From: Chelativorans sp. AA-79
Lineage (GTDB): Bacteria; Pseudomonadota; Alphaproteobacteria; Rhizobiales; Rhizobiaceae
Assembly (NCBI RefSeq): GCF_029457495.1
Contig: NZ_CP120361.1
Coordinates: 2,558,001 to 2,622,000, forward strand
Reading direction: 5' to 3'
Length of the DNA: 64,000 nt
This document shows positions 17,248-38,199 of this stretch, one piece after another. Position numbers and translations under genes: made by a program. A model generated the notes under the pieces. That model saw nothing but the letters and a program-made list of their open reading frames with translations, did no database searches and had not been told where the DNA came from. How positions within the stretch are numbered: position 1 is the first letter of the stretch; the number at the start of each line of letters is the position of its first letter.

Positions 17248-17365
17248 TGTGAAGGCGAACATAGTTTGTCCCAGAGTGCCGGATAAGTCATTGTAATCAT
17301 TGTGCATCGGTTGGAGAGCGGCAATGATGTTTGTCCGCAATGGCAACTTGGCGATGTCCCAAAGC
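17248..17365 (+). repeat. Left transposon end with transposase-binding repeats
   Basis: It begins TGTGAAGGCG. Three TGTCC-containing sites follow: one in AACATAGTTTGTCC (17258-17271) and two inside the 34-bp block 17332-17365 (TGTCCGCAATGGCAACTTG and CGATGTCCCAAAGC). The 34-bp block begins 84 bp from the tip. This matches the arrangement of repeated TnsB/TniA-binding sites at Tn7-like ends. Confidence 0.85.
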
Positions 17366-17465
17366 CAGCCAAGAGACTGCGGATTAAATGAGATTGATAG
17401 TCCGGGTTGAAACTTGCGGTCGACGACCTCACCATCAAATGAAGTGAGTTATCGGAGACGGCAGG

Positions 17466-17756
17466 ATGTGTCTGGATGAGTGCAAAAACATTGAAAATAC
17501 AATCGTTCCCGCTCTCAGGATTTATATGGAAATCGGTTGGCCGAACGCCGTAGACAGACTTATACAAACCTACATGCTGCGAGTTTTGCAGTTCGGAACG
17601 CAGGAATTGGATTTAAGATTTAAGGACGCTGAAGCTTGGCTGAAACACGCCAAGGAATATGAGCGAATTCATGGCAGAGGCAGTTTGATGAACCGAGATC
17701 ACCCCGCCTATCGAAGGTACAGGGTTCAGAAAGAACGCCTTGCCTCTACGGTTTAA
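17466..17756 (+). CDS. Small hypothetical protein at the left transposon end
   Basis: A 96-residue protein starting MCLDECKNIENTIVPALRIY. The ATG has CGGAGACGGCAGG upstream, a good ribosome-binding site. Composition is AT-rich compared with the surrounding chromosome. It is helical and basic toward the end (YRRYRVQKERLAST); no domain was recognised. It converges on the 17746-18162 gene, overlapping by 11 bp, and lies about 100 bp inside the left end, the usual position of transposon cargo. It might be an orphan antitoxin or regulator, but nothing shows this. Confidence 0.5.
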   Translation: MCLDECKNIENTIVPALRIYMEIGWPNAVDRLIQTYMLRVLQFGTQELDLRFKDAEAWLKHAKEYERIHGRGSLMNRDHPAYRRYRVQKERLASTV

Positions 17757-18162
17757 AACGTGGGCTAGTCACATGATTGTCGTCATCAATTTCTAACGAT
17801 TCACCGAGTGCCACGATTACATCATCTTTATTCTTTAGAAAGAGCGAAAGCATATATCCATCTTTCCAGCGGATTGCAGCATATTTTATAATTGTAGTTG
17901 TTCGATTATCTAAATATGCTATGGTATAAGTGGCCTTTATAATATGCGCATCGTCGATTTCACCATCCCTTTCTATTGTTAAATGTGCGTTAGCGAACTC
18001 CGCAGCGGCTAATGCCTGATTTTCCGTAAAGAAATGGCCGATAAATGCGCCAACGGCATTCATTGCAGCCCACATTGTCACGCCTGACACCGAAACGGTA
18101 AACGCCGCGGGACCGCCACGACCCAGCACTTGATCGGAGTTCATTGCCCCTACACTTTTCAT
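17746..18162 (-). CDS. Hypothetical protein translationally coupled to tniQ
   Basis: A 138-residue protein whose ATG overlaps the tniQ stop in an ATGA junction, making it the last gene of the transposition operon. An N-terminal Gly/Ala-rich hydrophobic stretch (SVSGVTMWAAMNAVGAFIGH) could be one membrane helix. The rest is a small domain with beta character (HLTIERDGEIDDAHIIKATY, TTTIIKYAAIRWKDGYMLS). It is AT-rich, unlike tniQ. I do not recognise the family. Its position suggests either a transposition accessory protein or the first cargo gene. Confidence 0.65.
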   Translation of the reverse strand: MKSVGAMNSDQVLGRGGPAAFTVSVSGVTMWAAMNAVGAFIGHFFTENQALAAAEFANAHLTIERDGEIDDAHIIKATYTIAYLDNRTTTIIKYAAIRWKDGYMLSLFLKNKDDVIVALGESLEIDDDNHVTSPRFKP

Positions 18163-20018
18163 GACGTCGATTCCAACCCAAGTTTAATTGAATACTCGAG
18201 CGGATATCTCAAGTAGAATGTGGCACCAACCACCGTTGGGTCGAAAGCCGGAGCAATTCCACAGGATTTCAGCTGTGACTTGACTTGGCTGAAATGCTCC
18301 CCGCGCTCTTTGGCGAGATTCATGAGGGAGACATAGGATCGTTGGAACCGAGCCAAGTCCTCTGGCATGACGATCGTTTGCGGGCACCGATTGATCGGGT
18401 TCACCGCAGTGCGTGCGGGGAGATACCCGTGTTCGATTAAAGCTTTCACGACCTGCGTCTTCGTCCCCAATTTGTGCTCAACTTCTCGCAGCGACAATCC
18501 GTCGTGGTCCTCGAGCATCGTTTTTTCGCGAAGCTCATCGGGGTCGACAAGCACCGCCATGTAGCCATGCTCGTTGGGATCGCGGAAAGCACGCTCCAGC
18601 TTGCCAGACAGTAATAAATCCAGGATCTCGACCGCCTTACAGTTCGCCTTCCGAACGGCATGAGGGATGCTGCACAACCCGGGTTCCTGGCCCGTCAACA
18701 GCTTCGTGTTTGCCAGCAATCGGTCGAGAAACACGCTGATATCTTCGCGACGAAACCGGAATTGGAGGCCATGTTTGGCTCCCGCCTTGACGTGGGGTGC
18801 AAGGTAACCCCGGTCGACCAGGATGCCCCAGTGAACCCGTGGTGCGTTGACGAGTTTCTGCGCCTCTTTCGCGGATACGGTGTCCTTGATCTCCGTAACA
18901 AATTCCGTGATCTCCTCAGCATCGAGCATGATGCGCGCATCGGTCAGCGCCGCGTTTTCCTTGGCCAGGACGCCCGTTTCGATAAGAAGTTTCCGTAGGC
19001 GCTTGGGATGCACGCCGAACTCCTTGGACGCAGATTGTACAGAGTGCCAGCGTCGATCAGTGATCGGACCGAAGAGCTCGTCACCCGGACCAAGGGGAAG
19101 GGTGTCAATGGCGTGCGCCCGGATCAGCTTTCGAACCGGATCGTAGGCGCTGTCGTCGGAATCATGTGCGAGCGCCTCATACAGCCGACCATAGAGTGCC
19201 CGTCCACCAGCATCTCCGGTCTTGCCCTTGAATGCGGCCTGCATCTCCGACAGCCAGCTGCAAATTCCTTCTTCTCCACTGGAGGTGACGGCAAAGCCAG
19301 CGGCCCCCGCATGCCACCAGTCGTCCCCGCCGAAGGTACGGATCGGAGCCTTGAGACCGCGCGTCACCACGGCACCCAACAGCTCGGTGAACCTTGCGGC
19401 GGCATAGAAGGGCAGGGCGTCGAGGAAGGGGAATGCACCGACGCGTCCGGTCATCCGGTCGTGGAGATAGCGTTCGAAGGCCGATGGCTCGCGCGCAACC
19501 GAACGCTTGGCCACTTCCGGAATCTCCTGGCGGTCCGCCTGCACCATGGCGGCGAAATCGTGGATCATCGATGGCTCCTGTTGGACGGAGCACTCCACAA
19601 GCGACACGTCATGAACGTCACATGTCCGGATGAACGAGATGAGCCATTTCCTGCGGCCCCATGCCCGTGCCAGGGGGTGCTCATCCTGGCGGCGCATGTC
19701 TTCAGCCAGGCATTCCGGACAGAAACGCAGGCGGTTGCGGATCATCAGGTTCCGTGTCACCCGCTGACCGTCGACTTCGTATCCGTCCGCCGTTTTCCGG
19801 ATCGCGCTTTCCCGGAGAGAGTTCACGTCGACGTCCGCAAGATATGCGAGCCTCAAAAGGGCAGCGTCACTGCCATCGACGACGTCCTGAAATCTGAAGC
19901 CCATATCGGCGCAGAAGTGGCGTGCTTTCAGACGGCCGTTCACAGCCGCCAATCTGGAGCAGAAGCTTGCCGGGGTTTCGCCGGAATGAAGACGGGTTCT
20001 GATAGTTAATTGGGTCAT
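18159..20018 (-). CDS. tniQ: TniQ/TnsD-like target-site selection protein
   Basis: A 619-residue TniQ-family protein. The N-terminal TniQ domain starts LTIRTRLHSGETPASFCSRL and carries a zinc-binding set: C100 and C103 in RFCPECLAEDMRR, C133 and H136 in RTCDVHDVSLVEC. The long C-terminal part, with repeated helix-turn-helix-like segments (LSLREVEHKLGTKTQVVKAL, SVQSASKEFGVHPKRLRKLL), is much larger than in 300-400-residue TniQ proteins and resembles TnsD, which binds a specific chromosomal site. The ATG at 20018 has GAGGAGACGGAC upstream. The likely target is the 3' end of nrdJ (inference from the insertion site). Confidence 0.9.
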   Translation of the reverse strand: MTQLTIRTRLHSGETPASFCSRLAAVNGRLKARHFCADMGFRFQDVVDGSDAALLRLAYLADVDVNSLRESAIRKTADGYEVDGQRVTRNLMIRNRLRFCPECLAEDMRRQDEHPLARAWGRRKWLISFIRTCDVHDVSLVECSVQQEPSMIHDFAAMVQADRQEIPEVAKRSVAREPSAFERYLHDRMTGRVGAFPFLDALPFYAAARFTELLGAVVTRGLKAPIRTFGGDDWWHAGAAGFAVTSSGEEGICSWLSEMQAAFKGKTGDAGGRALYGRLYEALAHDSDDSAYDPVRKLIRAHAIDTLPLGPGDELFGPITDRRWHSVQSASKEFGVHPKRLRKLLIETGVLAKENAALTDARIMLDAEEITEFVTEIKDTVSAKEAQKLVNAPRVHWGILVDRGYLAPHVKAGAKHGLQFRFRREDISVFLDRLLANTKLLTGQEPGLCSIPHAVRKANCKAVEILDLLLSGKLERAFRDPNEHGYMAVLVDPDELREKTMLEDHDGLSLREVEHKLGTKTQVVKALIEHGYLPARTAVNPINRCPQTIVMPEDLARFQRSYVSLMNLAKERGEHFSQVKSQLKSCGIAPAFDPTVVGATFYLRYPLEYSIKLGLESTS

Positions 20019-20028
20019 GTCCGTCTCC

Positions 20029-21099
20029 TCAAGCCTTTCGGCGGCGTTTCGGGGCAGGGGAGACCTCTTCGGCTGGACGATCTCGGACAAGAGCAGCCGA
20101 AGGCTGAAGCGTATGCCAGTCAGCGCGAAGAAATACGTTCTCGTCCTCAGTACAGCCGGAGAAGCGGCTGTAAGCCGCCGCGAAATGTCTCGCCTTCACC
20201 CGTCCGCCTGCAGCTTCATCGAACATCGCTTGCTCGATCGCGCCGCGGACGAGTTGAATTACAACGCCGAAGCGGCCGTAGGCGGCGTGGAGCAGGCGGT
20301 GGATGAACTCGTCTGGCAGGGCCGAGGCGAGCTGCATTTCGGCGTGCTTTGTCACCATGTGTTCGATCATCTTTCGTACGGAGACGGCGTCTTTCGCAAA
20401 TTCCAGGTTGCTGAACTCGAAGATGCGGGATCTGCGCATCAGCTGCACATCGGATGAGACCAGGCGCGCGAGTGTCGGAATACCAGACAGGATGAAACAC
20501 ACAGGCCAGTCCGGCTGTTGCATGACGTTCTTGATTGTATCCGACAGCTTTTGCCGTTCGGTGTCGTTCAGCGTGTTCACGGCATGCTGCATCTCATCGA
20601 TGTGAATGAACATCACCTTGCGAATCCGGATCTGCTGACGGACGAGCTCCCACACCATGTGTTCTTTGATTTCTCGGGAGAGGGGATATCCCAACGCCCT
20701 AAGTACTTCCCGCCCCAATTGCTTCAGCGTGCAAGGGGAGGGGGCCACGACGCTGATCAGGGGAGATGTCGAGATGCCATAGCGGTCCTGGTAGGGCTGA
20801 AATTCGGCTCTGTTCGCGATGATACGTTTGAGGAGTGTCGTCTTACCCGCTCCGGAATCTCCGATGACCACCAGAGCCGACCCATCGCGCCGTACGCTCC
20901 CGTGCGCGCTGGCGGCATTCTGGATGAGCATCTCGATCTCAGTTTCAAGAGCCGCATCCCTCGGGGTGGTAACGTGTTTCGAATGCAGTCTTGCAAGGCG
21001 TTCCGCTCGCTCCCGTGACTTGTCGGGCATTGCCGATCTCAGACGGGCGAGCGCCTCTGCGGCATCTTCTTCAAGGTGGGTTTGTTCCAAAGTCTCCAT
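20029..21099 (-). CDS. tniB: TniB/TnsC-like AAA+ transposition regulator
   Basis: A 356-residue AAA+ ATPase. Walker A GDSGAGKT is at residues 80-87, Walker B MFIHIDE at 163-169, and a sensor segment reads VCFILSGIPTLARLVSSD. The overall pattern (FEFSNLEFAKDAVSVRKMIE, AYGRFGVVIQLVRGAIEQAM) is typical of TniB/TnsC regulators, which polymerise on DNA, receive the target signal from TniQ/TnsD and activate the transposase. It is the third gene of the operon, 20 bp after tniA and 10 bp before tniQ. The basic C-terminus (APKRRRKA) could contact DNA or partner proteins. Confidence 0.92.
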   Translation of the reverse strand: METLEQTHLEEDAAEALARLRSAMPDKSRERAERLARLHSKHVTTPRDAALETEIEMLIQNAASAHGSVRRDGSALVVIGDSGAGKTTLLKRIIANRAEFQPYQDRYGISTSPLISVVAPSPCTLKQLGREVLRALGYPLSREIKEHMVWELVRQQIRIRKVMFIHIDEMQHAVNTLNDTERQKLSDTIKNVMQQPDWPVCFILSGIPTLARLVSSDVQLMRRSRIFEFSNLEFAKDAVSVRKMIEHMVTKHAEMQLASALPDEFIHRLLHAAYGRFGVVIQLVRGAIEQAMFDEAAGGRVKARHFAAAYSRFSGCTEDENVFLRADWHTLQPSAALVRDRPAEEVSPAPKRRRKA

Positions 21100-21119
21100 A
21101 ATTGAGTTCCTTTCTCTTC

Positions 21120-23375
21120 TCAGTGGTCGAACGACCAGTCGTCAGTGCGACCGGCTTCATCGGATCCGTCGTCATCATCGGCGTAGGGTTCGACGTCCAT
21201 CGCGTAAGGGGACGGTTGCGGTTCCAGCATTGCAGGGGTGGCGCGAACGTGATCATTGTCGGGATTGAGGTCATCGGCTGGCCGGTCCTCTCGCCTACCT
21301 TCCGGAAGGGTGATGATTTCGCCACCCGCAGGCGCATGGACCTCGCCGTCTTCCATGATCTCGAATGTACGGAAGACGGTCCGGTCGACCTCACGGAGGT
21401 ACTCCCTGTTCATCACTGGTGAGCCAAGCTCGGCGCGTTGGGCAGCCATTTCGCCGTAGGCCCGGCATTCGGAAATTGCCTCGGCGACTACTGCTTGGGA
21501 AACACGGGCATTGTCGGCGTGGATACGGGAGAGATGTTGGACGGCGGCAATCCATTCCCACACGCTGACGCCCTGAAAGCCCTCGAGACGTGGCAGGGCC
21601 ACCGCCCATCCGCCGAGTTCCTCATGCCAGAACGAGATTTCGCCGAGATCGAAGCGGTTCACGCGGATGTGGATGGAGGGGTTTGCCTTCGAGGCCCGGA
21701 TCTTTTGGAGCAACGGCGACTGGTAATGAATCCCCAGGAAGCGGACGCCTTTGCTGCCAATCCTGCACTCGCAGTGGACCCCGAAGATGCTCCGACGCTG
21801 AAACGGAGCTGGCGGTGGAGTGACCGGATTCCGCTTTGTCATGCGGAGCCACGCATTGCGGGGCGTTTCGCCGGCAAGGCCCGTATGCGGCGTATTGTGA
21901 TAGGCATCCACAATGGCGCGGACGAGAAGGCGGTTCAGTTCCTCCACGGAGATGGACGCGTTGCCTTCCGAGTCATAGTCACCCCGGACCACGACGTTCG
22001 CAAATGTCTGTCCAGTGTACCAAGCGAGGAACCGCTGTCGAATGGTCAGGAACATCCGCTCCACAGTTCCCCGCAGGTGTGGCTTCCCTGAAGGCGGGAT
22101 AACAGCGTTGCCAGTCAGCGCCAGAACCGTCGCCTTGAAAGAGTTGGCCACATAGGCAGCGCCGGCGTCCGTATAGACGCTTTCCGGCGTGCCATGCATT
22201 TCCCAAGGCGTTTGGGCTCCCACCGCGTCTGCGATGTACTGCTTGTCATGCACCGCCATCTCCAATGTAGCGATGGACGACTCGGCCGACGGCGGCTTGT
22301 CGATGAACCGCATTGCCAGAATGCATCGCGTGGCAACGTCAATTGTGAGCGACAGCCAGACTCGCGCTGGTTTGACCGCTTCTTTTTCTTTTTCGGAAAG
22401 AGTGTTCCAGATGCCGATGTCCATAAGGATCGTCATCAACTCCACTTCGTACTCATCCATCTCCACGCGCTGCAGGGGACGATCGACGTCGACGCCTGAC
22501 TGGGTGATCTGGAGCTTCCTTGTCGCGTAGTCCGTGCCCTTTCTTCCGGCCAGCACGAAAAAGTGGTCGAGTTTGTCGATCATGGTTTCGAAGGTGCGGC
22601 GGCTCGGCGAACGGAGAGGTTTCAGGCCTTTCAACGCCCGTTCCTTGTTCAGCAGAACGAGTTCCGCGTTCATGTCGCTGAATAGGGTGGCCTTCGACGG
22701 CTGGTTCGAACTGGCATAGCCCGCCGCCCACTTGCGGTGGATTTCAGTTTCCTCGGCCGTGAAGCGCGACGGGCGCGTACCGGGATACCGGTATCCGTCT
22801 CGGAGAGAACGGGCGTCAAACCCGGCTTGCTCGTATCTTTTCAACCAGCGACGGAATGTGCGCGGCGATACGGCAGTGCGCCGTACTTCTTTGGTTCCTC
22901 CGCGAGGTTTCCTGCCCTTTGCGCACGCCTCGGCGTCATCGAGTTCCGTTTGCCGTGCACGCATGTATTCGGCGAGGCTTTCATCTGAGCGGGAGTAACG
23001 GCCTTTGGCTTCGAGGTGGAAGAAGTCATGGATCAGAGAATGTCGCCAGAGGATAGTGTCTTGGGCCTTCTCGCTCAGATCAGTAACCGGAAGTGCTCTG
23101 TGTTCGGCGCGAACATGTGCGTCTGACCCGCGAAACCAGTTCCTGTCGACGGCGAGTTCTCCATCGGCGATCTTGCGGTAGACGAGTTCATGCGAGAAGT
23201 GCTCGACCAGTTCCGGGTTGTCATGTCGGCGGAAGACATGCCCGCTGGAACTGTCTCGATCATACATGTACGCCGTGTTTCCGATCCTGATACGATCGTG
23301 CCGCCCGAAATGGTAAAAGGGAACAACCGGAGCGTTCGATCCGATGGATGCAATGGTGTTTTCAGCGATGCTCAT
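21120..23375 (-). CDS. tniA: TniA/TnsB-like DDE transposase (Mu C-terminal type)
   Basis: A 751-residue transposase. After N-terminal helix-turn-helix DNA-binding domains (VSPRTFRRWLKRYEQAG) comes an rve catalytic core with D307 (VEMDEYEV), D403 (VYTDAGAAY) and E439 (GTVERMFLTIRQ). D403 and E439 are 35 residues apart, the classic DD35E spacing. A Mu-type beta-barrel follows (IHYQSPLLQKIRASKANPSI). It catalyses 3'-end cleavage and strand transfer, and binds the repeated sites at the element ends. The ATG overlaps the tnsA stop (ATGA) and has AAGGAGACTTCAA upstream. All catalytic residues are present. Confidence 0.93.
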   Translation of the reverse strand: MSIAENTIASIGSNAPVVPFYHFGRHDRIRIGNTAYMYDRDSSSGHVFRRHDNPELVEHFSHELVYRKIADGELAVDRNWFRGSDAHVRAEHRALPVTDLSEKAQDTILWRHSLIHDFFHLEAKGRYSRSDESLAEYMRARQTELDDAEACAKGRKPRGGTKEVRRTAVSPRTFRRWLKRYEQAGFDARSLRDGYRYPGTRPSRFTAEETEIHRKWAAGYASSNQPSKATLFSDMNAELVLLNKERALKGLKPLRSPSRRTFETMIDKLDHFFVLAGRKGTDYATRKLQITQSGVDVDRPLQRVEMDEYEVELMTILMDIGIWNTLSEKEKEAVKPARVWLSLTIDVATRCILAMRFIDKPPSAESSIATLEMAVHDKQYIADAVGAQTPWEMHGTPESVYTDAGAAYVANSFKATVLALTGNAVIPPSGKPHLRGTVERMFLTIRQRFLAWYTGQTFANVVVRGDYDSEGNASISVEELNRLLVRAIVDAYHNTPHTGLAGETPRNAWLRMTKRNPVTPPPAPFQRRSIFGVHCECRIGSKGVRFLGIHYQSPLLQKIRASKANPSIHIRVNRFDLGEISFWHEELGGWAVALPRLEGFQGVSVWEWIAAVQHLSRIHADNARVSQAVVAEAISECRAYGEMAAQRAELGSPVMNREYLREVDRTVFRTFEIMEDGEVHAPAGGEIITLPEGRREDRPADDLNPDNDHVRATPAMLEPQPSPYAMDVEPYADDDDGSDEAGRTDDWSFDH

Positions 23376-24076
23376 TTGAAGTCTCCTTTTCCTGCGGCGA
23401 GCACGTCGTGGTTCACGCGCACGAACGTGTGGTCACCGATGCGTGTGTGCAGAGGATCGCGGGTGACGGGTTCGAGGACGCCGTCATCGATCAGGCACCA
23501 AAAGGCAGTCCTGGCGAGACCGGGGTCCGACGTTGCTTTCAGCAGGCCGTGGACACGAACTGAGCCTTTGATCTCGGAGGCGATGCGGCGAAGCTCTGCG
23601 CAATTCTGGTCGTTGCGCATTCGCCGTGCCCTGAGCACTTGTTCGGCATTGTACACACGTGCACGGGAGATCTGCCGTTCGGTGAGGATGACCGCTTTAT
23701 CCGCAATTCGGGCCAGACTTTGCTGCCGGATCAACTCAATCTCGACGTCGAGGCGGGTTTGTCTGACGCGGCTGAAAGGCTTTACCGCATAAGCTACCCG
23801 GCAGCCGTCGTCGAACACCGCGAGCAGGTCAAACGTGTGTTTGCGTTTCACACCGTCGTGGTCGACGTACCAGACCGCTTTCGGCTGCTCCCAAACTTCC
23901 CGGACATTGCGTCTGGCCAACAAGACCGTCATCGCTTTGGCCTCAAGCAGGCTTTCTGCGATCATGCTGCGGTTCGACGCGGCGTTTGCGACGCTCGCGC
24001 GCGCAGACGCTTTGGTTTTCCAATCGAAACGTCGGGAAGCTTTAGATTCTCCGGGCGGCACCCAAACTTGAGTCAT
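23372..24076 (-). CDS. tnsA: TnsA-like transposase endonuclease subunit
   Basis: A 234-residue protein with TnsA organisation: a PD-(D/E)XK-type nuclease domain followed by a C-terminal winged helix. Likely catalytic residues are E41 or E45 in ESLLEAKAM, D83 in HTFDLLAVFDDG and K99 in RVAYAVKP; the usual Gln two residues before the Lys is Ala here. TnsA cuts the 5' ends so that the element moves by cut-and-paste rather than cointegrate formation. The ATG at 24076 has GAGG upstream; an in-frame TTG six bases earlier is the alternative. It is the first of four overlapping or closely spaced transposition genes. Confidence 0.85.
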   Translation of the reverse strand: MTQVWVPPGESKASRRFDWKTKASARASVANAASNRSMIAESLLEAKAMTVLLARRNVREVWEQPKAVWYVDHDGVKRKHTFDLLAVFDDGCRVAYAVKPFSRVRQTRLDVEIELIRQQSLARIADKAVILTERQISRARVYNAEQVLRARRMRNDQNCAELRRIASEIKGSVRVHGLLKATSDPGLARTAFWCLIDDGVLEPVTRDPLHTRIGDHTFVRVNHDVLAAGKGDFK

Positions 24077-24260
24077 GCTCAAGACCTCGTTCGTGCGGAA
24101 GGCGCGGTATTTCGCACCCTCCTCCCGAGGTCTCGATCACGCGGCCCGTGAACAGATGGTCAGGGCGTAGGAAGCTCGTTGCCGCGGGAATGTCTCCCGA
24201 CGCCAGGGCAATGCCCGCACGACGATCATGGAGATGATTCAGAAAAAGCCGTTCGCTCAT
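24042..24260 (-). CDS. Small hypothetical protein leading the tns operon
   Basis: A 72-residue open frame, MSERLFLNHLHDRRAGIALA onward, with AAAGGACAGCTTC before the ATG and an out-of-frame 35-bp overlap with the tnsA start. The ribosome-binding site and overlap suggest a real leader gene whose translation could be coupled to tnsA. No domain was recognised. Alternatively the frame is chance and tnsA is translated independently. Confidence 0.4.
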   Translation of the reverse strand: MSERLFLNHLHDRRAGIALASGDIPAATSFLRPDHLFTGRVIETSGGGCEIPRLPHERGLEHDSSLGAARRI

Positions 24261-24776: not shown

Positions 24777-25475
24777 ATGGCGGTCATCTGCTTCGACGAG
24801 TGCAAGGACGACGCGGCTCAAGGGCGGCCGTGGTATATTGTTGGCGGCATTCTGATTGACATGCAGAACGTCATGGCGGTCGAGAACCTCGTGTCGGACG
24901 TCGCTACCGACATTTTCGGTTCACGCGAGCTTGTGCGTGATACCGAATTTCATGGCAAGGAAATCTATAACGCGAAGGCAGCGTTCAAGGGTATGCCCAT
25001 CGCTGATCGCATCGCAATCTTCGACCGCCTTCTGGAAATCATCGCGAACGATGATCTAGTGCGTCGCGTATATGCGGCCGTGAAGACGGACAAATTGAAG
25101 CTGTATGATCGCGCTCCGAGATACGCATTCGCTCATTTTGTCGAGAGGGCACAGATGGCCCTACGAGTTGCCGAAATGGGATTGCTGATCGGTGATCTTG
25201 ATGACCAGCAGTCAAGGCAGATGGTGGCCGACTTCGCTCAGTTTCGCGCAACTGGAACGCCGTGGGACTACGGGCGACCTGTGACACAGATTGCAGGGTC
25301 TGTGAACTTTGTGCGGTCTCACCATAGCCGCCTTATGCAGCTTGCCGATGTCTATGTTTTCACGGTTGCAAACCAGTATGCTCCGCGCACTGGATACGCT
25401 GGTGATGAGCTTAAGAAGGTGATCCAAACGCGAAACCCGTATGCCCATCGCTACAAGCGTTGGGAACCGGACTGA
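24777..25475 (+). CDS. DUF3800 domain protein
   Basis: A 232-residue protein with the DUF3800 pattern: ICFDECKDD at the start (the family's DES-like acidic strand), LIDMQNVMAVENLVSD, acidic GDLDDQQSRQMV in the middle and LMQLADVYVFTVANQYAP near the end, the Q-x-A-D motif. DUF3800 proteins are predicted RNase H-like nucleases that often occur in defence islands. AGGGGG six bases before the ATG is the probable ribosome-binding site. It is the first gene of a three-gene plus-strand operon with the DUF4238 and DUF4145 genes. Confidence 0.85.
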   Translation: MAVICFDECKDDAAQGRPWYIVGGILIDMQNVMAVENLVSDVATDIFGSRELVRDTEFHGKEIYNAKAAFKGMPIADRIAIFDRLLEIIANDDLVRRVYAAVKTDKLKLYDRAPRYAFAHFVERAQMALRVAEMGLLIGDLDDQQSRQMVADFAQFRATGTPWDYGRPVTQIAGSVNFVRSHHSRLMQLADVYVFTVANQYAPRTGYAGDELKKVIQTRNPYAHRYKRWEPD

Positions 25476-25494
25476 TGGTGGGACGCCATGTCAA

Positions 25495-26448
25495 ATGCCG
25501 AACCAACCCTTCAAGCATCACTTTCTGCCGGTCTTTTACCTGAAGCAGTGGGCGGGTGCCGATGGTTGCCTGGTCCAGTTCAGCAAGCCACATGGCAACA
25601 AGGTTGTGCCGAATAGAAAGCACCCGGATGGTACCGGCTACATCAACCGGCTCTACGCTATCTCCGGCGTTCCGGACGATGAAGCTGTGCGCTTTGAGCG
25701 CGCCTTTCTTTCGCCCGTCGACAGCAAGGCCGCGGAAGCTCTCGTCATCATGCGGGACGAGCATGCCGTCGGGAATTTTACAGCCAAGCAAAGGTGGGCG
25801 TGGGTCCAATTCCTGACCAGCCTCATGACGCGGATGCCGGCGGATATCGCCATGATCAAGGAAAACGTGAAAGGCGACTGGCTAGCCGGCACACCCGATC
25901 TCCAGAAAAAGTATTCTGAGTTGAAAGCCGAAGGCGACCCCGAGCAGGTGTTAGATTTCATCAAAGCATCTGACGACGCGTTTTTCGAACGCGGGGCTAT
26001 GGCGATACTTGAGCGGATCATACGGCAGGAGACCGTCGCCCGGGCCATCTGCAGCATGCACTGGTCCGTGCTCACCGTGGAACGGTCCGACTTCAAGCTC
26101 CTGACCTCCGACCGTCCAATTCTCTACACGCCCCACATGATGGGGAAAGACTCCCACCTCGTTGTGCCGATAAGTTCGACCGAGATTTTCCTTGCGGCGC
26201 GCGAGCGGAGTTTTTCCCGTCGCATTCGGGCACGAAGCCAGAGCCATCTTGCACGCATTCTGAACGGAGCCGTGATCGGCAATGCCACGAGGTATGTGTT
26301 TGGAAGCGATGATCGCCAGTTACCATTCGTTCAACGTCACATGGGAACAAAGCCTGTTCCCTCGCTTATCGAAAGGCTACACCGGCTGCGCTTGAAGCGG
26401 ATGCAGGGTATAAGAATGCGACAGCTTCGCGGGGGAGGGGATGGATAA
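25495..26448 (+). CDS. DUF4238 domain protein
   Basis: A 317-residue protein opening MPNQPFKHHFLPVFYLKQWA and then GCLVQFSKPHG, the signature of DUF4238 (HHF-P-x-Y-L-x-x-F/W). The second half (HWSVLTVERSDFKLLTSDRP, LVVPISSTEIFLAARE) also fits. The molecular role of DUF4238 is not established; members are frequent in accessory islands. The ATG at 25495 is chosen because the conserved motif starts there; the frame extends upstream into the DUF3800 gene without support. It lies 19 bp after the DUF3800 stop and overlaps the next start by 8 bp. Confidence 0.85.
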   Translation: MPNQPFKHHFLPVFYLKQWAGADGCLVQFSKPHGNKVVPNRKHPDGTGYINRLYAISGVPDDEAVRFERAFLSPVDSKAAEALVIMRDEHAVGNFTAKQRWAWVQFLTSLMTRMPADIAMIKENVKGDWLAGTPDLQKKYSELKAEGDPEQVLDFIKASDDAFFERGAMAILERIIRQETVARAICSMHWSVLTVERSDFKLLTSDRPILYTPHMMGKDSHLVVPISSTEIFLAARERSFSRRIRARSQSHLARILNGAVIGNATRYVFGSDDRQLPFVQRHMGTKPVPSLIERLHRLRLKRMQGIRMRQLRGGGDG

Positions 26449-29329: not shown

Positions 29330-29393
29330 TGGAGTGACTCCGGATACGCCCGGGACAAGGTCCGGTTCATCAAGTTTCGGGGAAAGGCCGTTG

Positions 29394-30014
29394 TCAGTCG
29401 CGCCAGCGCCTGACGGAGGTTTCAGGGCCGATCAACGCTTCATCGAGATCGACTTCGACAAAGCGGTTCAGGATCAGGGAGGAGAGACCTGCTATCGGCC
29501 GCGTCTCCTGGAAGGCCGGGAAGCAATCAGCGACCGACAGCGTTCCGTGTTCGTCCAACGCCGCTAGCAGACGAATGCGATCTCCAAGAGGGCATTGCCA
29601 TCGGGAATATCTGAGCAGGTCCACGGCGTTCCAGAGCCGGAATCCGCTGCCGATCTCGTCGACGGGCACGGCAACATATTCATAGCCGTGGGCTGCGGCT
29701 TCACTGGCAATCCATAGGGCAGGGGATTTCTCCCTGCCCTCCACTGCATCCATGACAATTGACCCGCTGCCCTTTTCGACCAGGAAGTCAGGGATGTGGA
29801 CGCCGGAGTCTCGTTCTAGCATCAGAGGCAGACAGGTCCATGAAATCACATCCTGGTCAACATCCAACAGGCAGCCGAGATGTCGGGCAGCCTGATTGCG
29901 GAACAAAGGTGCTCCGGCACACCGGACCGTGCCGCGAGGATGAAAAGAATGACGAGCTGCTTCAACTCGTACGGAGGCGAGAAAGCTCTGATCTACGGTG
30001 GGGTGGGCGGTCAC
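29394..30014 (-). CDS. TnsA-fold protein, probably catalytically altered
   Basis: A 206-residue protein. Its layout parallels the element's own TnsA: WTCLPLMLERDSGVHIPDFL then SIVMDAVEG align with the TnsA strand set around D83 and K99, YEYVAVPVDEI and RLWNAVDLLRYSR align with the following region, and a C-terminal winged helix reads LDEHGTLSVADCFPAFQ. The aspartate (PDFL) is kept but the lysine expected after SIVMDAV is missing, so it may bind DNA or partners without cutting. The start is GTG at 30014 with GGAG six bases upstream. It is followed by the FtsH-like protease gene, making a two-gene unit. Assignment rests on pattern comparison only. Confidence 0.6.
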   Translation of the reverse strand: MTAHPTVDQSFLASVRVEAARHSFHPRGTVRCAGAPLFRNQAARHLGCLLDVDQDVISWTCLPLMLERDSGVHIPDFLVEKGSGSIVMDAVEGREKSPALWIASEAAAHGYEYVAVPVDEIGSGFRLWNAVDLLRYSRWQCPLGDRIRLLAALDEHGTLSVADCFPAFQETRPIAGLSSLILNRFVEVDLDEALIGPETSVRRWRD

Positions 30015-30845: not shown

Positions 30846-30916
30846 TTGCCCCGTCACCGTATGCCGCTCTGAGTTCGACCATACCCAGAGGCCAGGTTCG
30901 TTGAAGAACGGGGACG

Positions 30917-31447: not shown

Positions 31448-31573
31448 GTCGGGCTCTGGGCTCACAGCGGCGACCTGTTGTGTTACGGATTGGCCCACCT
31501 AAGAAGAAAGTCACCGGCAATTCGTTAATGGTCCCGGGTTTAGCTTGATGCAGGGTAGGTGCCGGAACACAAA

Positions 31574-31813
31574 ATGACAAAGAATCGAGAAAATCATGCA
31601 AATCCGCGCCGGGAATCCAACATATGGACCCTGGAAGAGGCGCGAAGCCAATTCGATGAACTCATTGCGGCGGCCGCGCAACGTGGATCCCAGAGAATTC
31701 AGGATTCTGGTCGGGAATTCAGCCTGACACTCGTACGTGCGAAATCTTCGCCGCAAGGGAAGGAAATCCTTGGAAGGGGAGGGCCGCTTGATCAAACCGA
31801 CGAATTGGATTGA
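31574..31813 (+). CDS. Phd/YefM-like antitoxin homologue
   Basis: A protein of about 79 residues. NIWTLEEARSQFDELIAAA followed by SQRIQDSGREFSLTLVRAK matches the N-terminal DNA-binding fold of Phd/YefM antitoxins (W-x-x-x-E-A-x-x-x-F-x-E-L-L ... G-x-x-x-x-x-R). The C-terminal toxin-neutralising tail is GRGGPLDQTDELD. The ATG at 31574 lacks a clear ribosome-binding site; an in-frame GTG at 31559 with AGGG upstream is an alternative. It is divergent from the PIN gene, whereas most vapBC/phd-doc pairs are co-linear, so either the pair has been rearranged or the shared promoter region is controlled from the centre. Confidence 0.6.
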   Translation: MTKNRENHANPRRESNIWTLEEARSQFDELIAAAAQRGSQRIQDSGREFSLTLVRAKSSPQGKEILGRGGPLDQTDELD

Positions 31814-31942
31814 TCAGGGCAGCCCCACAGCGGCGAGAACGGAATGGGCGGTTTGTCATCGGATCATGAAGATGACTGAACGGGTTCATTCGCCCGCCCA
31901 TCTCGACATACAGCTTGAGCAACGGTTATCACCGCCAGATCT

Positions 31943-32923
31943 CTATGCCTTCACGCGGTACCTGCTTGGCGGTAGGCCAAAGTGCTGCCTGAACTCGCGG
32001 GAAAAATGTGCGGCATCCGAGAAACCGCAGTCCAGCGCGATTTGGGTAAGGCTGTCCAGCTTGTTGTCAATCATCCACCGACCGTAATTGAGCCTCATGA
32101 CGCGGTGATACCTCATCGGCGTCATACCGAGCTCTCCCCTGAAAGCGCGTTCAAGCTGGCGTGCGCTGACGCCGACGTACCGGGCGACAGCTGGTATTGG
32201 AGGCAGGTGATCGAGCTGTTGCTCCATGAAATGGATCGCTTTGCGGACCCTTGGATCTTTTACCCCCTCGAGTTCCTGACAGAAATACGCCTGCGGGAGA
32301 CTCGGCTCGCGAATTCCCGTCAGCATCATGTGGCGCACTGCCTGTTGGGCCCTGTCCCTGCCGCAGTGACGGGAGACAAGATAAAGACCAAGGTCGATCG
32401 CGGCGGTAGAGCCTGCGCAAGTAATGAGGTCACCTTCGTCGACAAAAAGACGGTCGACCGACGTATGCACGTGCGGGAATTGCCGTTCAAAAGCATCCTT
32501 GACGTTCCAATGAACACAGACGGTTCTTTTGTCTGCAAGACCGGCCCGTGCTATCGCGAAGCTGCCGGTACATATGCCGAGTAGCCGGACGCCTTTGTCG
32601 ATCGCGTTCTCCAGATAACGTGAGAGAAGCGGGGTGGGGCGGTCGTCCAAATAATTGTTGCCTCCGCAAACAGCGATGTAATCGAATTCTTCCGGATCGA
32701 TAAAATCGCTGCTTCCGGTCACCTGTAGTCCGCAGCTGGCCGTTTGGTTTCCCGCTTCCGGCGTCATGATTTTCCACGAAGCATGTATTTGACGGCTTTC
32801 CCCTCCGTCGTCCGCTGCCAGACGCAGCGCATCAATCAAACCGCCGAACGCAGCCAAGGTGAATTTCTCGAGAAGGACGAAACCGACACGGAGCGGTGCC
32901 TTTCGAGTGTCTGCGGCGACCAT
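31943..32923 (-). CDS. GlxA family transcriptional regulator (DJ-1/PfpI plus AraC domains)
   Basis: A 326-residue regulator. Residues 1 to about 190 are a DJ-1/PfpI-like domain (LRVGFVLLEKFTLAAFGGLI, FDYIAVCGGNNYLDD, LLGICTGSFAIARAGL). The rest is an AraC-type DNA-binding domain with two helix-turn-helix motifs (IPAVARYVGVSARQLERAFR and TQIALDCGFSDAAHFSREFR). GlxA/GbdR-type members regulate catabolism or uptake of quaternary amines, arginine and related compounds. It is divergent from the polyamine-type ABC operon across 119 bp and is its likely regulator. GGGAGAACGGTC precedes the ATG. Confidence 0.9.
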   Translation of the reverse strand: MVAADTRKAPLRVGFVLLEKFTLAAFGGLIDALRLAADDGGESRQIHASWKIMTPEAGNQTASCGLQVTGSSDFIDPEEFDYIAVCGGNNYLDDRPTPLLSRYLENAIDKGVRLLGICTGSFAIARAGLADKRTVCVHWNVKDAFERQFPHVHTSVDRLFVDEGDLITCAGSTAAIDLGLYLVSRHCGRDRAQQAVRHMMLTGIREPSLPQAYFCQELEGVKDPRVRKAIHFMEQQLDHLPPIPAVARYVGVSARQLERAFRGELGMTPMRYHRVMRLNYGRWMIDNKLDSLTQIALDCGFSDAAHFSREFRQHFGLPPSRYRVKA

Positions 32924-33042
32924 GACCGTTCTCCCAACCTCATTTTGTCGTTTTTATTCAAGTTTCCGGCTATAGGTTTCAAGCTAATTTTCGCGCGGAT
33001 TGCAAGGTTTGCTCCGGGGAACGTACATAAGGGAGAAGCACA

Positions 33043-34083
33043 ATGAGAAATTCGACTTTCCTGTTTTCCGCTCTCGTTGCCGGCATGGCGGCGACGATTC
33101 CTTACGCCAGAGCCCAGGGCGAGACGCTTACAGTAGCTTGGTACGGAGGGAATTGGGGCGACGCATTTCAGGAGTGCGTTGCGGACCCCTTCACCGAGGC
33201 GACCGGAATACAGGTTGTACCAGACATTGGAACTTCCACGACAACATTGGCCAAGCTGCAACAGCAGGCCGCCAATCCGACCATCGACGTCGTCTACATG
33301 GACGGCGGGATCAGTGAATTGGCTGAAGAAGCTGGTGTGTTGGGGGCCATCGATCTGGAAGCCATGCCAAACTCCGAAAAACTTGCGAAGTCTGCCATCT
33401 ACCGGAATGGCGAAAAGGTCTATGCGGTGGGCGGCGGATATTATTCCCTCGGGCTGACATACCGGACCGACGAAATCGAAACGGCACCAATGTCGTGGGA
33501 AGCGCTGTGGGATGAGGATTATGCGGGAGCCGTCACAATTCCTTCCCCCAGCAATTCGGCCGGGATTCCCTTCATCTTTTTCCTGAACCGGATTGGCGGT
33601 GGCTCACCTGACGACATGAGCGAAACCTTCGAGAAATTGAAGAGCCTTGACGCCGGGCTGTTTTTTGACTCCTCGGGCGCTGCCAGCAACGCTTTTCAGA
33701 GCGGCGAAGTAATTATTGGCGCTCACTTCAGCGTCGGCGCATGGGACTTGATCGACAGCGGCCTGCCCGTCGGATTCGTCGTGCCGAAGGAAGGCGTTTG
33801 GGCAACTGACGCACGCCTGCATGTCGTCGAAGGTGCCCCGAACCCGGAAGGTGCCTTGAAATTCATTGACATGGCTCTCAGCGCCGAGGCAGCCTCCTGC
33901 TTGGCGGAAACGCTCTATCTTGGTCCCGCCGTGACCGAAGTCGAGCTGTCACCGGAAGTCGGCCGCAAGCTCCCTTGGGGAGAAAACGGCTCGGTTGATG
34001 ATCTGCTTCTATTCGATTGGAACGAGATCAATGCCCGTCGGGCCGAGCTGACCGATACCTGGAACCGCGAAGTAGCGCGCTGA
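33043..34083 (+). CDS. ABC transporter substrate-binding protein, spermidine/putrescine type
   Basis: A 346-residue periplasmic protein with signal peptide (LFSALVAGMAATIPYARA). The mature start ETLTVAWYGGNWGDAFQE and later IDVVYMDGGISELAEEAG, YYSLGLTYRTDEI and EGALKFIDMALS place it in the PotD/SBP_bac_6 extracellular solute-binding group. AGGGAGAAGCAC precedes the ATG. It heads an operon with ATPase and permease genes, divergent from a GlxA-type regulator. The ligand is probably a polyamine or similar cation; residues alone do not settle it. Confidence 0.88.
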   Translation: MRNSTFLFSALVAGMAATIPYARAQGETLTVAWYGGNWGDAFQECVADPFTEATGIQVVPDIGTSTTTLAKLQQQAANPTIDVVYMDGGISELAEEAGVLGAIDLEAMPNSEKLAKSAIYRNGEKVYAVGGGYYSLGLTYRTDEIETAPMSWEALWDEDYAGAVTIPSPSNSAGIPFIFFLNRIGGGSPDDMSETFEKLKSLDAGLFFDSSGAASNAFQSGEVIIGAHFSVGAWDLIDSGLPVGFVVPKEGVWATDARLHVVEGAPNPEGALKFIDMALSAEAASCLAETLYLGPAVTEVELSPEVGRKLPWGENGSVDDLLLFDWNEINARRAELTDTWNREVAR

Positions 34084-34089
34084 AGCGAC

Positions 34090-35130
34090 ATGCCTCTCCT
34101 CTCCATCGAGAACGTCTCCAAGAAGTTCGGAAAGCATCAGGCGCTTAGCGAAATTTCGCTAAAGGTCGAACCCGGAGAGTTCGTCTCTCTTCTTGGTCCC
34201 AGCGGGTGCGGCAAGACTACCCTCCTGCGATTGATTGCCGGGTTTCTGACATGCGATGCCGGGACAATCCGTATCGATGGAGAGGACATCACAGGTCTGC
34301 CGCCTCATAGGAGACCGCTCAACACGGTTTTCCAGAACTATGCTCTGTTTCCGCATTTGAATGTCCTGGATAATGTTGCCTATGGGCCGCGCCGCACCGG
34401 CGCAAGCCGGAACGAATCCCGGAATCGGGCCCACGAGGCTCTGGGCCTGGTTGGATTGTCGGAGTTCAGCGGGCGCTATCCGCGGCAGATGTCCGGAGGA
34501 CAGCAGCAACGTGTCGCGCTGGCGCGTGCCATCGTAAACAGGCCGAAGTTGTTGCTTCTCGACGAGCCGTTGAGCGCCTTGGATCTCCAGCTTCGCAAGC
34601 GCATGCAAATCGAACTGAAACAAATTCAGGAAAAGATCGGTGTCGCCTTCGTCTTCGTCACTCATGACCAGGAAGAGGCTATGGCGATGTCGGATCGCAT
34701 TGCGGTGATGAGGCAGGGACGGATCGAGCAGCTCGGTGATGGAGACGAGATATACCGCCACCCTTCAACGCGCTTCGTAGCGGAATTCATCGGCGAGGCA
34801 AATCTGCTACCGATTATCAAGGATGGCGGAGATGTTCGGATAAGCGAAGCCGATAACCAGGGCAGATCTTGCATCGCGGTCGTGCGACCCGAACATGTTC
34901 ATCTTTCCGTAGACGCGGGGGGACGCCAAGATGGACACCTCCAGCTTCCCGGGCAGATTGAGACGATCAACAGCATCGGCGGAGCCACCAACATCTACGT
35001 GAAGGCGCTGGGACATTCGATCATGGCTCGTCGGCTGGGACTCGCCCGTGAAGGCCTGTCAGAGGGCCAGCCCGTCCAGGTCAACATCCGGCAGGTCGAC
35101 ATTCACTTCATCAGGGACAAACGGCTATGA
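34090..35130 (+). CDS. ABC transporter ATP-binding protein, PotA-like
   Basis: A 346-residue ATPase. Walker A GPSGCGKT, Q-loop in NTVFQNYALFPHL, signature MSGGQQQRVALARAI and Walker B LLLLDEPLSALD are all intact, with the switch histidine in VFVTHDQEEAMAM. A C-terminal TOBE-like regulatory domain (CIAVVRPEHVHLSVDAGG) is present. It would drive polyamine or related uptake together with the following permeases. The next gene overlaps its stop by 4 bp. Confidence 0.92.
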   Translation: MPLLSIENVSKKFGKHQALSEISLKVEPGEFVSLLGPSGCGKTTLLRLIAGFLTCDAGTIRIDGEDITGLPPHRRPLNTVFQNYALFPHLNVLDNVAYGPRRTGASRNESRNRAHEALGLVGLSEFSGRYPRQMSGGQQQRVALARAIVNRPKLLLLDEPLSALDLQLRKRMQIELKQIQEKIGVAFVFVTHDQEEAMAMSDRIAVMRQGRIEQLGDGDEIYRHPSTRFVAEFIGEANLLPIIKDGGDVRISEADNQGRSCIAVVRPEHVHLSVDAGGRQDGHLQLPGQIETINSIGGATNIYVKALGHSIMARRLGLAREGLSEGQPVQVNIRQVDIHFIRDKRL

Positions 35131-35960
35131 ACGGCACACGTGCCACCATCGTGGCACTGGTCGCGCTCCCCTTGGCTTTCTTCGTCGCCTTTTTCCTGGT
35201 GCCGCTCACGGTCGTTTTGCTGGCAAGTTTTACGAGCGGGGAAGGGGGGGCGACGCTCTCCAACTACGCACGGATTCTTCTGGATCAATACCATTGGTCG
35301 GTGATTGCCGTGACTTTCCGTCTGGGCGTCCTGACCACTTTGATATGCCTTGTGATCGGCTACCCGCTCGCCTGGTATCTGGTCCGGATCGTGCAGTGGA
35401 AGGCATGGCGGCGTCTTTGCGTCATACTCCTGGTCCTTCCGCTCTTCACCAGCAACATCGTACGTTCCTTCGGCTGGATGGTGCTTCTCGGCCGGAACGG
35501 TATCGTGAACGAGTCGATGGAACTCTCGGGGTTGATTGAACGCCCGATCCGCTTCCTGGGCACGGAAATTGGGATACTGATTGGATTGGTCTACATCCTC
35601 CTGCCTTTCGTCGTCCTGACTGTCGGAAACGCACTGGCCAGAATTGACACCTCACTCGAGCATGCATCGGCCGATCTTGGCGGCAGTCCGGCGTCTACTT
35701 TCTGGAACGTCACTTTCCGCCTGAGCATCCCGGGAGTCGTATCGGGCGCGATCATCGTGTTTGCCCTTGCCGTGAGCGCCTACGTGACTCCGGCACTCCT
35801 GTCAGGCGGACGCGTCACTGTGCTCGCCATGCTTGTGTTCCAACAATATGCGAGCGTTTTCGATTTCCACTACGGCGGGGCGCTCGCGATCACCCTGCTC
35901 GTCTTTACCCTGGCGATGATTTCTGTTTCTTCGCTCGTCTCGCGGCTGGGAGTTCGCTGA
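35127..35960 (+). CDS. ABC transporter permease, PotB-like
   Basis: A 277-residue inner-membrane permease with six predicted helices (VALVALPLAFFVAFFLVPLT at the N-terminus). The cytoplasmic EAA-type loop is visible around LEHASADLGGSPASTFWNVT. It overlaps the ATPase stop by 4 bp and is followed 2 bp later by the truncated second permease. Because the partner permease is lost, the transporter is probably inactive unless this subunit works as a homodimer or with another protein. Confidence 0.9.
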   Translation: MNGTRATIVALVALPLAFFVAFFLVPLTVVLLASFTSGEGGATLSNYARILLDQYHWSVIAVTFRLGVLTTLICLVIGYPLAWYLVRIVQWKAWRRLCVILLVLPLFTSNIVRSFGWMVLLGRNGIVNESMELSGLIERPIRFLGTEIGILIGLVYILLPFVVLTVGNALARIDTSLEHASADLGGSPASTFWNVTFRLSIPGVVSGAIIVFALAVSAYVTPALLSGGRVTVLAMLVFQQYASVFDFHYGGALAITLLVFTLAMISVSSLVSRLGVR

Positions 35961-35962
35961 CA

Positions 35963-36097
35963 ATGATCGTGCGCAGCCTTATCCGCGTCATTTCCCTATT
36001 GGCTCTCGCGTTCCTGCTGCTGCCCTTGGCCGTTATCATCGGAGCGTCCCTGACGACGAGCGAATTCTTGTCGTTCCCGCCGATGTTGTCAGGATGA
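35963..36097 (+). pseudogene. Truncated second permease (PotC-like)
   Basis: An ATG two bases after the PotB stop opens a frame of 44 residues: MIVRSLIRVISLLALAFLLL, then PLAVIIGASLTTSEFLSFPP, followed by MLSG and a stop. The first 40 residues match the N-terminal helix and the LxFPP motif of PotC-like permeases (about 260-270 residues). After FPP (about 36082) the sequence switches to the reverse complement of the neighbouring ATPase gene. About 220 residues and the EAA loop are missing. Confidence 0.85.
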
Positions 36098-37916
36098 ATT
36101 GCGTATCGGGAAATTTCGTCTTGAGCAGGCGGCATACTTCGCGCCGGTGGCTGGTATCAACGGACATAAGGACGTCATCGAGCACGGCAAAGGTGAACTT
36201 GTCGCCGAGCGTGTGCTTCATCAGCGCCAGATAAAGGCACAGCCCCATACCGTCTTGATGCCCTTCGCTATGATAAGCGCCGGGCGGGAACGTTCCCCTG
36301 CCATAGAAATCGACATTGAAACTGAGTTTCGCCGGCTCGGCCTTCAACTCACCGACAAATCTGCCTTCATCGTCATTGATGGCCTTGTAGAAGTCGGTGA
36401 ATTCCTTGGCGACGGCATCGTAGATGTCTTCGAGGACCTTGTTGGAAACGGCGTTGTAGTGGTCATGCACCTTCTGCGCCGTGGCATTTCGCATGCCCAT
36501 TGCCTTGGCGGCTCTGGTCGTAGAGAGCAGTCTTTCATAGCGATCCTGGAGGACGGCGAGGAACGCAATCGCATTGTCCTTGGCCGAGCTGTCGGGCAAA
36601 GCCGTGAAGCCTTTTTGCGTCTCGTCTAGTCGTGCCTGCGCTTCTGCCGCAACTTCCCACCACTTCTTCTCCAGCGCGGAAATTGCACCTTCAATCTTGG
36701 AATGATCCTCCTGAAATGCCTTGAGCGCCGCCTTCACGTCACCAAGGGCCTCGGCGTAACTATCGAGCTCGGCGCGAAGGACGGAGGGACTAAGTGCCCC
36801 CGCGTAGTCAGCCGCCTTGCGGATCGCTGTTGCCCGTTCGTCAATCCCGCCCACAACTGCGCCGATCGCCTTGCCAAGACTTTCGAGCAGCGTGCCCATC
36901 TCTTCGGCACTCAAGAGCTTCGTCTTGAGGTGTTCGCGCAACTCATCGGCGTTCCAAGGCGTGTCGCAAAGAGGGCAGGCATCCTCCGTAACCAGTTGCA
37001 GGCCAGTGGTAATGAAGCCATGCGCCCGGGCAAGTGACAGAGCCTTTTCGTCCTCCTTTAGCTTTCGCAAAGCTGACAGGGCGCTTTCCCGATGCGCTTT
37101 CAACGTGGCGGGTTCAGCTGCCTTAATGGCGGCGGACAACGCAGCAAGGTCTGCAAGGGCGACATCTTTTGCTATGCCGGGTTTCTCGGAATCTTTCCCA
37201 TCCTTCGGCGCACCTTCCTTGAAAGACGTTTGCGGGGTGAGCTCGGCCAAAGTCGGCAAACCAAGAATGCCGCGCTGCGCATTGGCTCTTTCCAGCACTT
37301 TTTCCCGGTCAAGCGCGGGAAGCCCGAGCGCCGTCTTGAGGTCGTCTTCGGCACGCTTCCGCGCGCGCTCCGCTTCCTCGTCCTCCCGTTTGCATTTGTT
37401 TGCGTAGCTGACGAACGCTCTGCGCAAGCCTCCAATATGCTCAAGGCGCAGCAGATTCTGCACGTCAGTGGAACGCTTCGCGGGTGGCGTGACAATGTAT
37501 TTGGCGATCTCACGACGGGAGAGGGCAAACTCGGGGTGCGATTGCAGTTCGTCAAAGACTGCCTCCGCTGCCGGATCAGCGGGCGTAAGGATCATGATAC
37601 GCGGATTCTTGACGGTGCGCGTTATCGTGACGTCCTTACCGAGGGAAGGGATAGTCGCAGTAATCGCAACCTTGGCTTTGTCGGGGTTTTTGCGATGATC
37701 GACGTGAGGCGCATGCCCTTTAACGCTTAGTTCGCCCTGGCCTTGTCCGGAAAGTCTCGTGACATTGCCGGTGAGACAAAACTCGATGGCATCGACCACG
37801 CCGCTCTTGCCGGTGCCATTCGGTCCGCAAATCCCGAAATTTGCACAGCCCAAATCAAGATCAAGTTCCCGGATGCCGCGAAACTCCTCGATATGGATGG
37901 TCTTTATGCGGATCAC
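36036..37916 (-). pseudogene. SMC/Rad50-like AAA ATPase, 3' end lost
   Basis: The open frame has 626 codons. Walker A GPNGTGKS is at 31-38, coiled-coil segments follow, a CPLC motif at 314-317 (EDACPLCDTPW) resembles a zinc hook, and Walker B reads FAVLDDVLMSVD at 576-587. The frame runs through QFILTT at 606-611, where relatives continue with H and a C-terminal extension. Here it changes to unrelated residues (SAGTTRIRSSSGTLR) encoded by antisense sequence of the truncated permease. The core is therefore nearly complete, but the end and any downstream partner genes are gone. Similar ATPases occur in defence systems and DNA repair. The start overlaps the upstream small gene by 4 bp. Confidence 0.82.
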
Positions 37917-38113
37917 CCATTGCCCCCCTTGGGTAGGGGGGAAAGTGCCGTATCAATATCCTCGATTTTCGGAACCTTGCCCGTTCGCAAGAGTGCGTCG
38001 AGCTGCTTTGCAAGTGCGTCTCCCAGCGCTTCATCAGCAAGCAACGTATCAAGATACTCGTCAAGAACCTTCGTGACGGTCGGTGAAAGCGGGTTGTTGT
38101 GTTGCTCGTTCAC
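37913..38113 (-). CDS. Small partner gene of the SMC-like ATPase
   Basis: A protein of about 66 residues starting at a GTG (VNEQHNNPLSPTVTKVLDEY), with a helical, leucine-rich centre (LADEALGDALAKQLDALLRT). Its stop overlaps the ATPase start in an ATGA junction, so the two are translationally coupled. The open frame extends upstream to 38179, but that part is the transposon's right-end repeat, so the downstream GTG is preferred even though its ribosome-binding site is weak. No named family was recognised. Confidence 0.6.
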   Translation of the reverse strand: MNEQHNNPLSPTVTKVLDEYLDTLLADEALGDALAKQLDALLRTGKVPKIEDIDTALSPLPKGGNG

Positions 38114-38124
38114 GCTGTTTCGTA

Positions 38125-38199
38125 GCTTTGGGACATCGTCAAGTTGCCATTGCGGACATTTTAGGCTGCAGGAGGACAAACTATGTTGCCCTCCTCACA
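38125..38199 (-). repeat. Right transposon end with transposase-binding repeats
   Basis: Read on the minus strand it begins TGTGAGGAGG, then AACATAGTTTGTCC (38187-38174), then the 34-bp block (38158-38125) with TGTCCGCAATGGCAACTTG and CGATGTCCCAAAGC. The 34-bp block starts 41 bp from the tip, against 84 bp at the left end. Confidence 0.87.

Follow-up and report, generated by a model that had tools for sequence, protein, structure and literature searches.

Transposon Tn7 moves with the products of its TnsA, TnsB, TnsC and TniQ/TnsD genes, and transposase sites are found in both of its ends. It inserts beside a conserved chromosomal gene in a controlled orientation, duplicating 5 bp of the target, and keeps tnsA beside the target-side end. 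Elements of the Tn5053/Tn402 type are replicative, encode TniA, TniB, TniQ and TniR, and seek resolvase sites. According to PMC11406308, the 3' coding end of glmS is the targeting signal of Tn7. The known natural attachment sites of Tn7-like elements are few, a handful being listed in Table 1 of that article. Other classes of attachment site, at yhiN, comM, parE and tRNA genes, share with the locus described here the strategy of a fixed chromosomal position (PMC11406308 and PMC10293859, both in part). The window analysed here is a stretch of 64,000 nucleotides from Chelativorans sp. AA-79 (genome G000; contig NZ_CP120361.1, positions 2,558,001 to 2,622,000). Within it, positions 17248-38197 form a complete cut-and-paste Tn7-like transposon of about 21 kb, made of a tnsA-tniA-tniB-tniQ operon, cargo genes and multi-site inverted ends, and lying just behind nrdJ, the gene of a class II ribonucleotide reductase. 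We assign a probability of about 0.88 to the reading that a TnsD-type TniQ recognizes the nrdJ 3' end and guides the element, in one orientation, to the DNA immediately following it.

An earlier, sequence-only reading had described the region as a single and complete mobile unit, both ends of which were identified, and the inverted ends, the open operon and a duplication of the target bear this out. The left end (17248-17365, plus strand) has the tip TGTGAAGGCG, an outer repeat at 17258-17271 and an inner 34-bp repeat at 17332-17365. The right end (38125-38197, minus strand) has the minus-strand tip TGAGGAGGGC, and the corresponding repeats at 38174-38187 and 38125-38158. The outer repeats are exact copies of the 14-mer AACATAGTTTGTCC, on the plus strand at the left and on the minus strand at the right, as had been claimed, and the 14-mer occurs nowhere else in a search allowing up to 3 mismatches. 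The 14-mer alone is weak evidence, because about 1.2 chance matches are expected at this tolerance. The 34-bp blocks, also spotted in the sequence-only reading, are complementary at 97% of positions, and the surrounding outer pair is 83% identical over 24 bp. A 19-bp core of the 34-bp block is found at two sites only, one in each element end, against a chance expectation of 0.01. The end repeats are plausibly binding sites for TniA. No Rfam family matched at gathering scores between positions 16500 and 39000 of the window, nor in seven loci.

The right border follows from an alignment in which both tips have the same spacing to the outer repeat. This places it at 38197, and the CA at 38198-38199 falls within a 5-bp duplication, CAGCA, the copies of which lie at 17243-17247 and 38198-38202. 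Because of a local GCA repeat, the window also shows a 6-bp GCAGCA match, and a 5-bp match in another frame shifted outward by 3 bp. Relatives with the same ends, carried by G409 (duplication ACGTG) and G406 (GGGTT, read in the nrdJ sense), match solely in the equal-spacing frame, and the frame is therefore fixed. Two other readings, one with GCAGCA as a 6-bp duplication and the right tip at 38199, the other with a 3-bp duplication and an odd stagger, were rejected, since equal spacing yields exact 5-bp duplications in all three Chelativorans copies. Two details of the sequence-only reading had thus to be corrected. The TGTGA proposed as right tip set the border 2 bp too far, and the 6-bp GCAGCA match is a product of the GCA repeat.

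The transposition genes lie on the minus strand in the order tnsA-like (23372-24082, 236 aa), tniA/tnsB (21120-23375, 751 aa), tniB/tnsC (20029-21099, 356 aa) and tniQ/tnsD-like (18159-20090, 643 aa), followed by an open reading frame (ORF) of 138 aa without Pfam match (17746-18162). The first four frames are open, in agreement with the operon proposed earlier. The DDE transposase TniA carries the expected DD35E residues (D307, D403 and E439, 35 residues separating the last two), and matches solved TnsB structures at 1e-21. The AAA+ ATPase TniB matches its Pfam family at 6.6e-16, has the P-loop noted before as a Walker motif, and finds its best match among solved structures in TnsC of Tn6677 (1.4e-5). 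TniQ matches its Pfam family at 2.8e-20. The core operon of a Tn7-like element is thus present, TniB and TniQ scoring above the Pfam cut-offs, TniA matching TnsB, and the TnsA-like endonuclease, recognized by tblastn, falling below the cut-off (TnsA_N, 2.9e-4). A TnsA-like protein adjoins tniA in 7 of 11 related regions searched by tblastn. Neither TnsE nor a guide-RNA pathway turned up among the cargo proteins in a general Pfam scan. In the database form of TniQ (P0001), 619 aa long, the start codon is an internal ATG. The sequence of TniQ matched none of the solved structures, and its predicted model (predicted local distance difference test score 92.5) features a TniQ core followed by predicted tandem helix-turn-helix (HTH) units, with which structure matches agree. 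On the strength of the model, the 643-aa protein is probably TnsD-like, with a putative DNA-binding C-terminus. Relatives of TniQ are present on 50 plasmid records. A part of tniB (20333-20899) is 99.6% identical to the G409 copy (L095) over 567 bp, the adjacent tniA region only 86%, and the operon therefore looks like a mosaic of two sources. The other two contigs of the window genome (G000:C2 and G000:C3) hold another nine matches that are TniA-like but distant, with 26-28% identity, and some of which have identical scores.

The gene next to the right end, which the sequence-only reading had missed as the target, is nrdJ (38219-42055, minus strand, 1278 aa, identified by Pfam). The element ends 21 bp beyond its stop codon, leaving it intact, and the 3' end of nrdJ is plausibly the attachment sequence. 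The 3' region was matched in 16 of 16 genomes of the genus, and full-strength nrdJ matches were obtained in 78 of 81 host-family genomes sampled, the other three giving weak matches only. A search for an empty site in related genomes, suggested by the sequence-only reading, was successful: in G402, of the same genus, the left flank runs straight into nrdJ (983 bp at 84%), and 303 of 386 positions match with a single copy of CAGCA. Other copies with the same ends, the further check suggested, were found at the same locus in G409, as a 41.4-kb relative with a syntenic flank, and in G406, where the left end and flank are on one contig, and the right end beside nrdJ is near the start of another. 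The tniQ gene of G406 spans two reading frames. The Tn7-like element behind nrdJ in G403 has ends of another type, and is likewise split over two contigs, which an exact duplication joins. Counting the window, Tn7-like elements thus occupy the nrdJ site in 4 of 16 Chelativorans genomes, the remaining sites having been only partly examined. In a scan of named genomes, TniA is 94% identical in Chelativorans sp. YIM 93263, 85% in Chelativorans sp. Marseille-P2723.

Among 38 genomes, nrdJ shows strong conservation over its last 63 bases, and the bases past the stop codon look mutually unlike in 18 genomes compared by eye. The simplest signal is therefore the end of the coding sequence, as it is for Tn7 at glmS (PMC11406308). 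Some 80-150 bp past the nrdJ stop, DNA similar to the nrdJ 3' end and oriented like it is found in G385 (L175), G105 (L165), G622 (L164) and, more weakly, G617 (L181). The scores of G385 and G105 exceed all 114 shuffled controls, that of G622 is just under the best control. Such sequences may be decoys, or second landing sites for tandem insertion. In six loci (L174, L172, L178, L196, L159 and L162), the first island genes are preceded, 20-180 bp past the nrdJ stop, by a GC-rich hairpin and then a box like AAGGAACAAAACAGGAA, possibly a shared leader or terminator-promoter. The seven loci compared with Rfam gave no match for it.

The same arrangement was found well beyond the genus. DNA behind nrdJ was compared with DNA behind tniQ of the same genome in 30 genomes. 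In 13 of them the inverted-repeat pairing score was at least 16, a value reached by at most 2.4% of 870 cross-genome pairs, the top ones being mostly between related elements. With G406 added, 14 bounded elements were obtained. Thirteen have an exact 5-bp duplication, 13 offsets having been tried, against 0.044 per genome expected from the cross-genome rate. The distance from the nrdJ stop to the insertion point is 12-49 bp, and no more than 25 bp in 11 of 14. Tips vary by group (TGT, TCT, TAA, CCT and others), and several end types therefore share the nrdJ target. Diverged relatives have thus inserted repeatedly behind the same gene.

Genes for TniQ were detected in 44 of 394 family genomes at 1e-40, and in 24 of 397 order genomes at 1e-10. 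nrdJ was sought in 53 tniQ-matching and related genomes, and found in 51, all but G618 and G703; 12 weaker order genomes (G101, G132, G202, G210, G279, G291, G294, G315, G319, G361, G375 and G389) fell outside this search. Both genes are on the same contig in 22 genomes, the window's included. In 17 of these a tniQ shares the strand of nrdJ and follows it 18-115 kb downstream (G000, G409, G759, G505, G677, G576, G446, G768, G680, G428, G704, G385, G451, G527, G414, G760 and G111). Among contigs larger than 1 Mb, nine are linked in this way (G000, G409, G446, G759, G451, G677, G704, G414 and G760), and two are not (G432 and G748). A binomial estimate of the linkage was discarded, as it assumed 5-Mb contigs, and several actual contigs are short. 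The linked TniQ proteins are as little as 27-30% identical to that of the window, and 13 linked tips are scattered across several branches of the TniQ tree. Shuffled labels clustered on the tree as well as the real ones, few tips being labelled. G111, which has a linked tniQ and unmatched ends, belongs to a different family of the same order. A survey of 385 genomes across the class, at 1e-30, gave two matches, one in the genome of the window and one in G1115, the latter having tniQ and nrdJ on different contigs. A TniQ search of phage records gave no match.

Several of these results weigh against a targeted element of the Tn7 type. Five of the 22 same-contig genomes are not linked as described (G681, G510, G432, G748 and G349), and G505, G451 and G680 have further tniQ copies on other contigs. 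In 32 of the 53 genomes, plus G1115, tniQ and nrdJ are on different contigs, or nrdJ was not matched (G618 and G703), and end matching resolved three of the split cases (G403, G406 and G501). Clear end pairing was missing in 17 of the 30 genomes compared. The 14 bounded elements were selected by end pairing and are not a random sample, and for one of them, G576, the test found no duplication with 4 or 5 bases in agreement. Where the island measures 50-115 kb, elements may be nested or arranged in tandem, and the tniQ found there need therefore not own the nrdJ-side end. Within the window, the weak point is TnsA, which scores 21.8 bits against a curated Pfam cut-off of 26.5, and found no match when its sequence was compared with solved structures.

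Alternative explanations can be measured against the same data. A replicative transposon of the Tn5053/Tn402 type would account for the Pfam matches of TniB and TniQ, and for the order tniA-tniB-tniQ, and Tn5053 had been part of the name given in the sequence-only reading. Yet, a TnsA-like gene precedes tniA, no resolvase was found among the cargo proteins scanned, and the target, in the window as in related elements, is the 3' end of a chromosomal gene and not a res site. This origin is scarcely credible, and the Tn5053 part of the name is not supported. It is also very unlikely that one old insertion behind nrdJ has simply been inherited, the repeated position being no sign of targeting. The copies of the window, G409 and G406 do have ends, some cargo and flanking synteny in common, but insertion points and duplicated sequences differ among elements, end sequences form several unlike sets, the site is empty in G402, and the linked tniQ of G111 resides in another family, with ends that were not matched.

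The 3' end of nrdJ might instead be a general hotspot for mixed mobile elements, such as those moved by tyrosine recombinases, Tn7-like elements being passengers in islands. In G446 (L187 and L188) the island behind nrdJ is 107 kb long and closes, on the side away from the gene, with a second copy of the nrdJ 3' end (239 bp, 99% identical), which looks like another kind of integration; moreover, some islands reach 115 kb. Against this, it is the Tn7-type ends themselves that are directly behind nrdJ in 14 genomes, 13 of which show exact 5-bp duplications and a matching end beside tniQ. We regard a general hotspot as very unlikely. The right end adjoins the nrdJ 3' end, relatives do likewise, and the target is therefore chosen.

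The following scheme is modelled on the Tn7 family, from which the roles of the single proteins are borrowed. TniA (TnsB) would bind the repeated sites in both ends and, together with TnsA, cut the element out. TniB (TnsC) would connect the complex of TniA, TnsA and ends to the target selector. The C-terminal HTH units of TniQ would bind the conserved coding sequence at the nrdJ 3' end, TniQ being plausibly the reader of nrdJ. Insertion would then occur in one orientation, mostly 12-25 bp and up to 49 bp past the stop, with nrdJ left intact and 5 bp duplicated. The copy in the window may still be active. Differences from Tn7 concern the target, which is nrdJ and not glmS, the presence of one TniQ only, the lack of TnsE among the cargo proteins scanned, and the cargo, which is located between tnsA and the target-side end.

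From left to right, the cargo includes genes with DUF3800, DUF4238 and DUF4145 domains (24777-27205, plus strand), an FtsH-like protease with AAA and M41 domains (27398-29329, minus), conserved in G409 (90% at the DNA level) and G406 (87%), a 206-aa protein beside it (29394-30014, minus), and, at 31943-35960, an AraC-type regulator on the minus strand and ABC transporter genes on the plus strand (binding protein, ATPase and one permease). The transporter cluster (33043-35960) has a single permease, the second being seemingly missing. An SMC-like ATPase and an 88-aa ORF overlapping the right end (36036-38179, minus) close the series, and their DNA is 97% identical in G409. The ATPase is LmuB-like in PADLOC (4.8e-26); a full Lamassu set was not shown.

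Defence genes are known as cargo of Tn7-like transposons (PMC8649781, in part). Different from those elements, here the tested gene nearest the nrdJ-side end is often defence-like. As ten first-gene proteins examined earlier came from recurring clusters, the count was repeated over the 14 bounded elements, testing the first or longest ORF. Of the 14 genes tested, 11 matched PADLOC models with values of 1e-10 or better, and seven are parts of CBASS (cyclic-oligonucleotide-based antiphage signalling systems) or Pycsar: CBASS cyclases in G576, G403 and G501, SAVED effectors in G704, G414 and G505, and PycC in G428. SMC-like genes, the matches of which are weaker evidence of defence, account for G000, G451, G759 and G409, the latter unscanned and entered through its 97% DNA identity to the window. 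No defence match was found for G768 (an aldo/keto reductase, a nearer 131-aa ORF having been passed over), G677 (no match at all) and G406 (an IS4/5 transposase). We lean towards the broader view that the nrdJ 3' end is an old common attachment site of a diverse Tn7-like lineage in the host order, that TnsD-type TniQ proteins read nrdJ by tandem HTH units, and that the lineage delivers anti-phage systems, often of the cyclic-nucleotide type, to this place.

Term searches of the main texts of PMC10293859, PMC8649781 and PMC11406308 met neither nrdJ nor ribonucleotide reductase. No title or abstract was found tying nrdJ to a Tn7-like element; supplements and subscription papers were outside the search, and earlier notice is possible. 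Of the two nearest publications, PMC2864759 deals with nrdJ solely in metabolism, without Tn7, and in PMC9120033 TniQ and a class III reductase occur in separate, unconnected contexts. The parts of the element are ordinary for this kind of transposon, and the nrdJ target is new as far as the literature searched goes. Each Tn7-like attachment site comes with its own way of reading a defined chromosomal sequence. If the reading proposed is true, a TnsD that reads nrdJ would add a further landing site, at which single copies could be inserted stably in rhizobia and related bacteria. Unexplained islands behind nrdJ would become defined transposons, and new anti-phage genes could simply be sought there.
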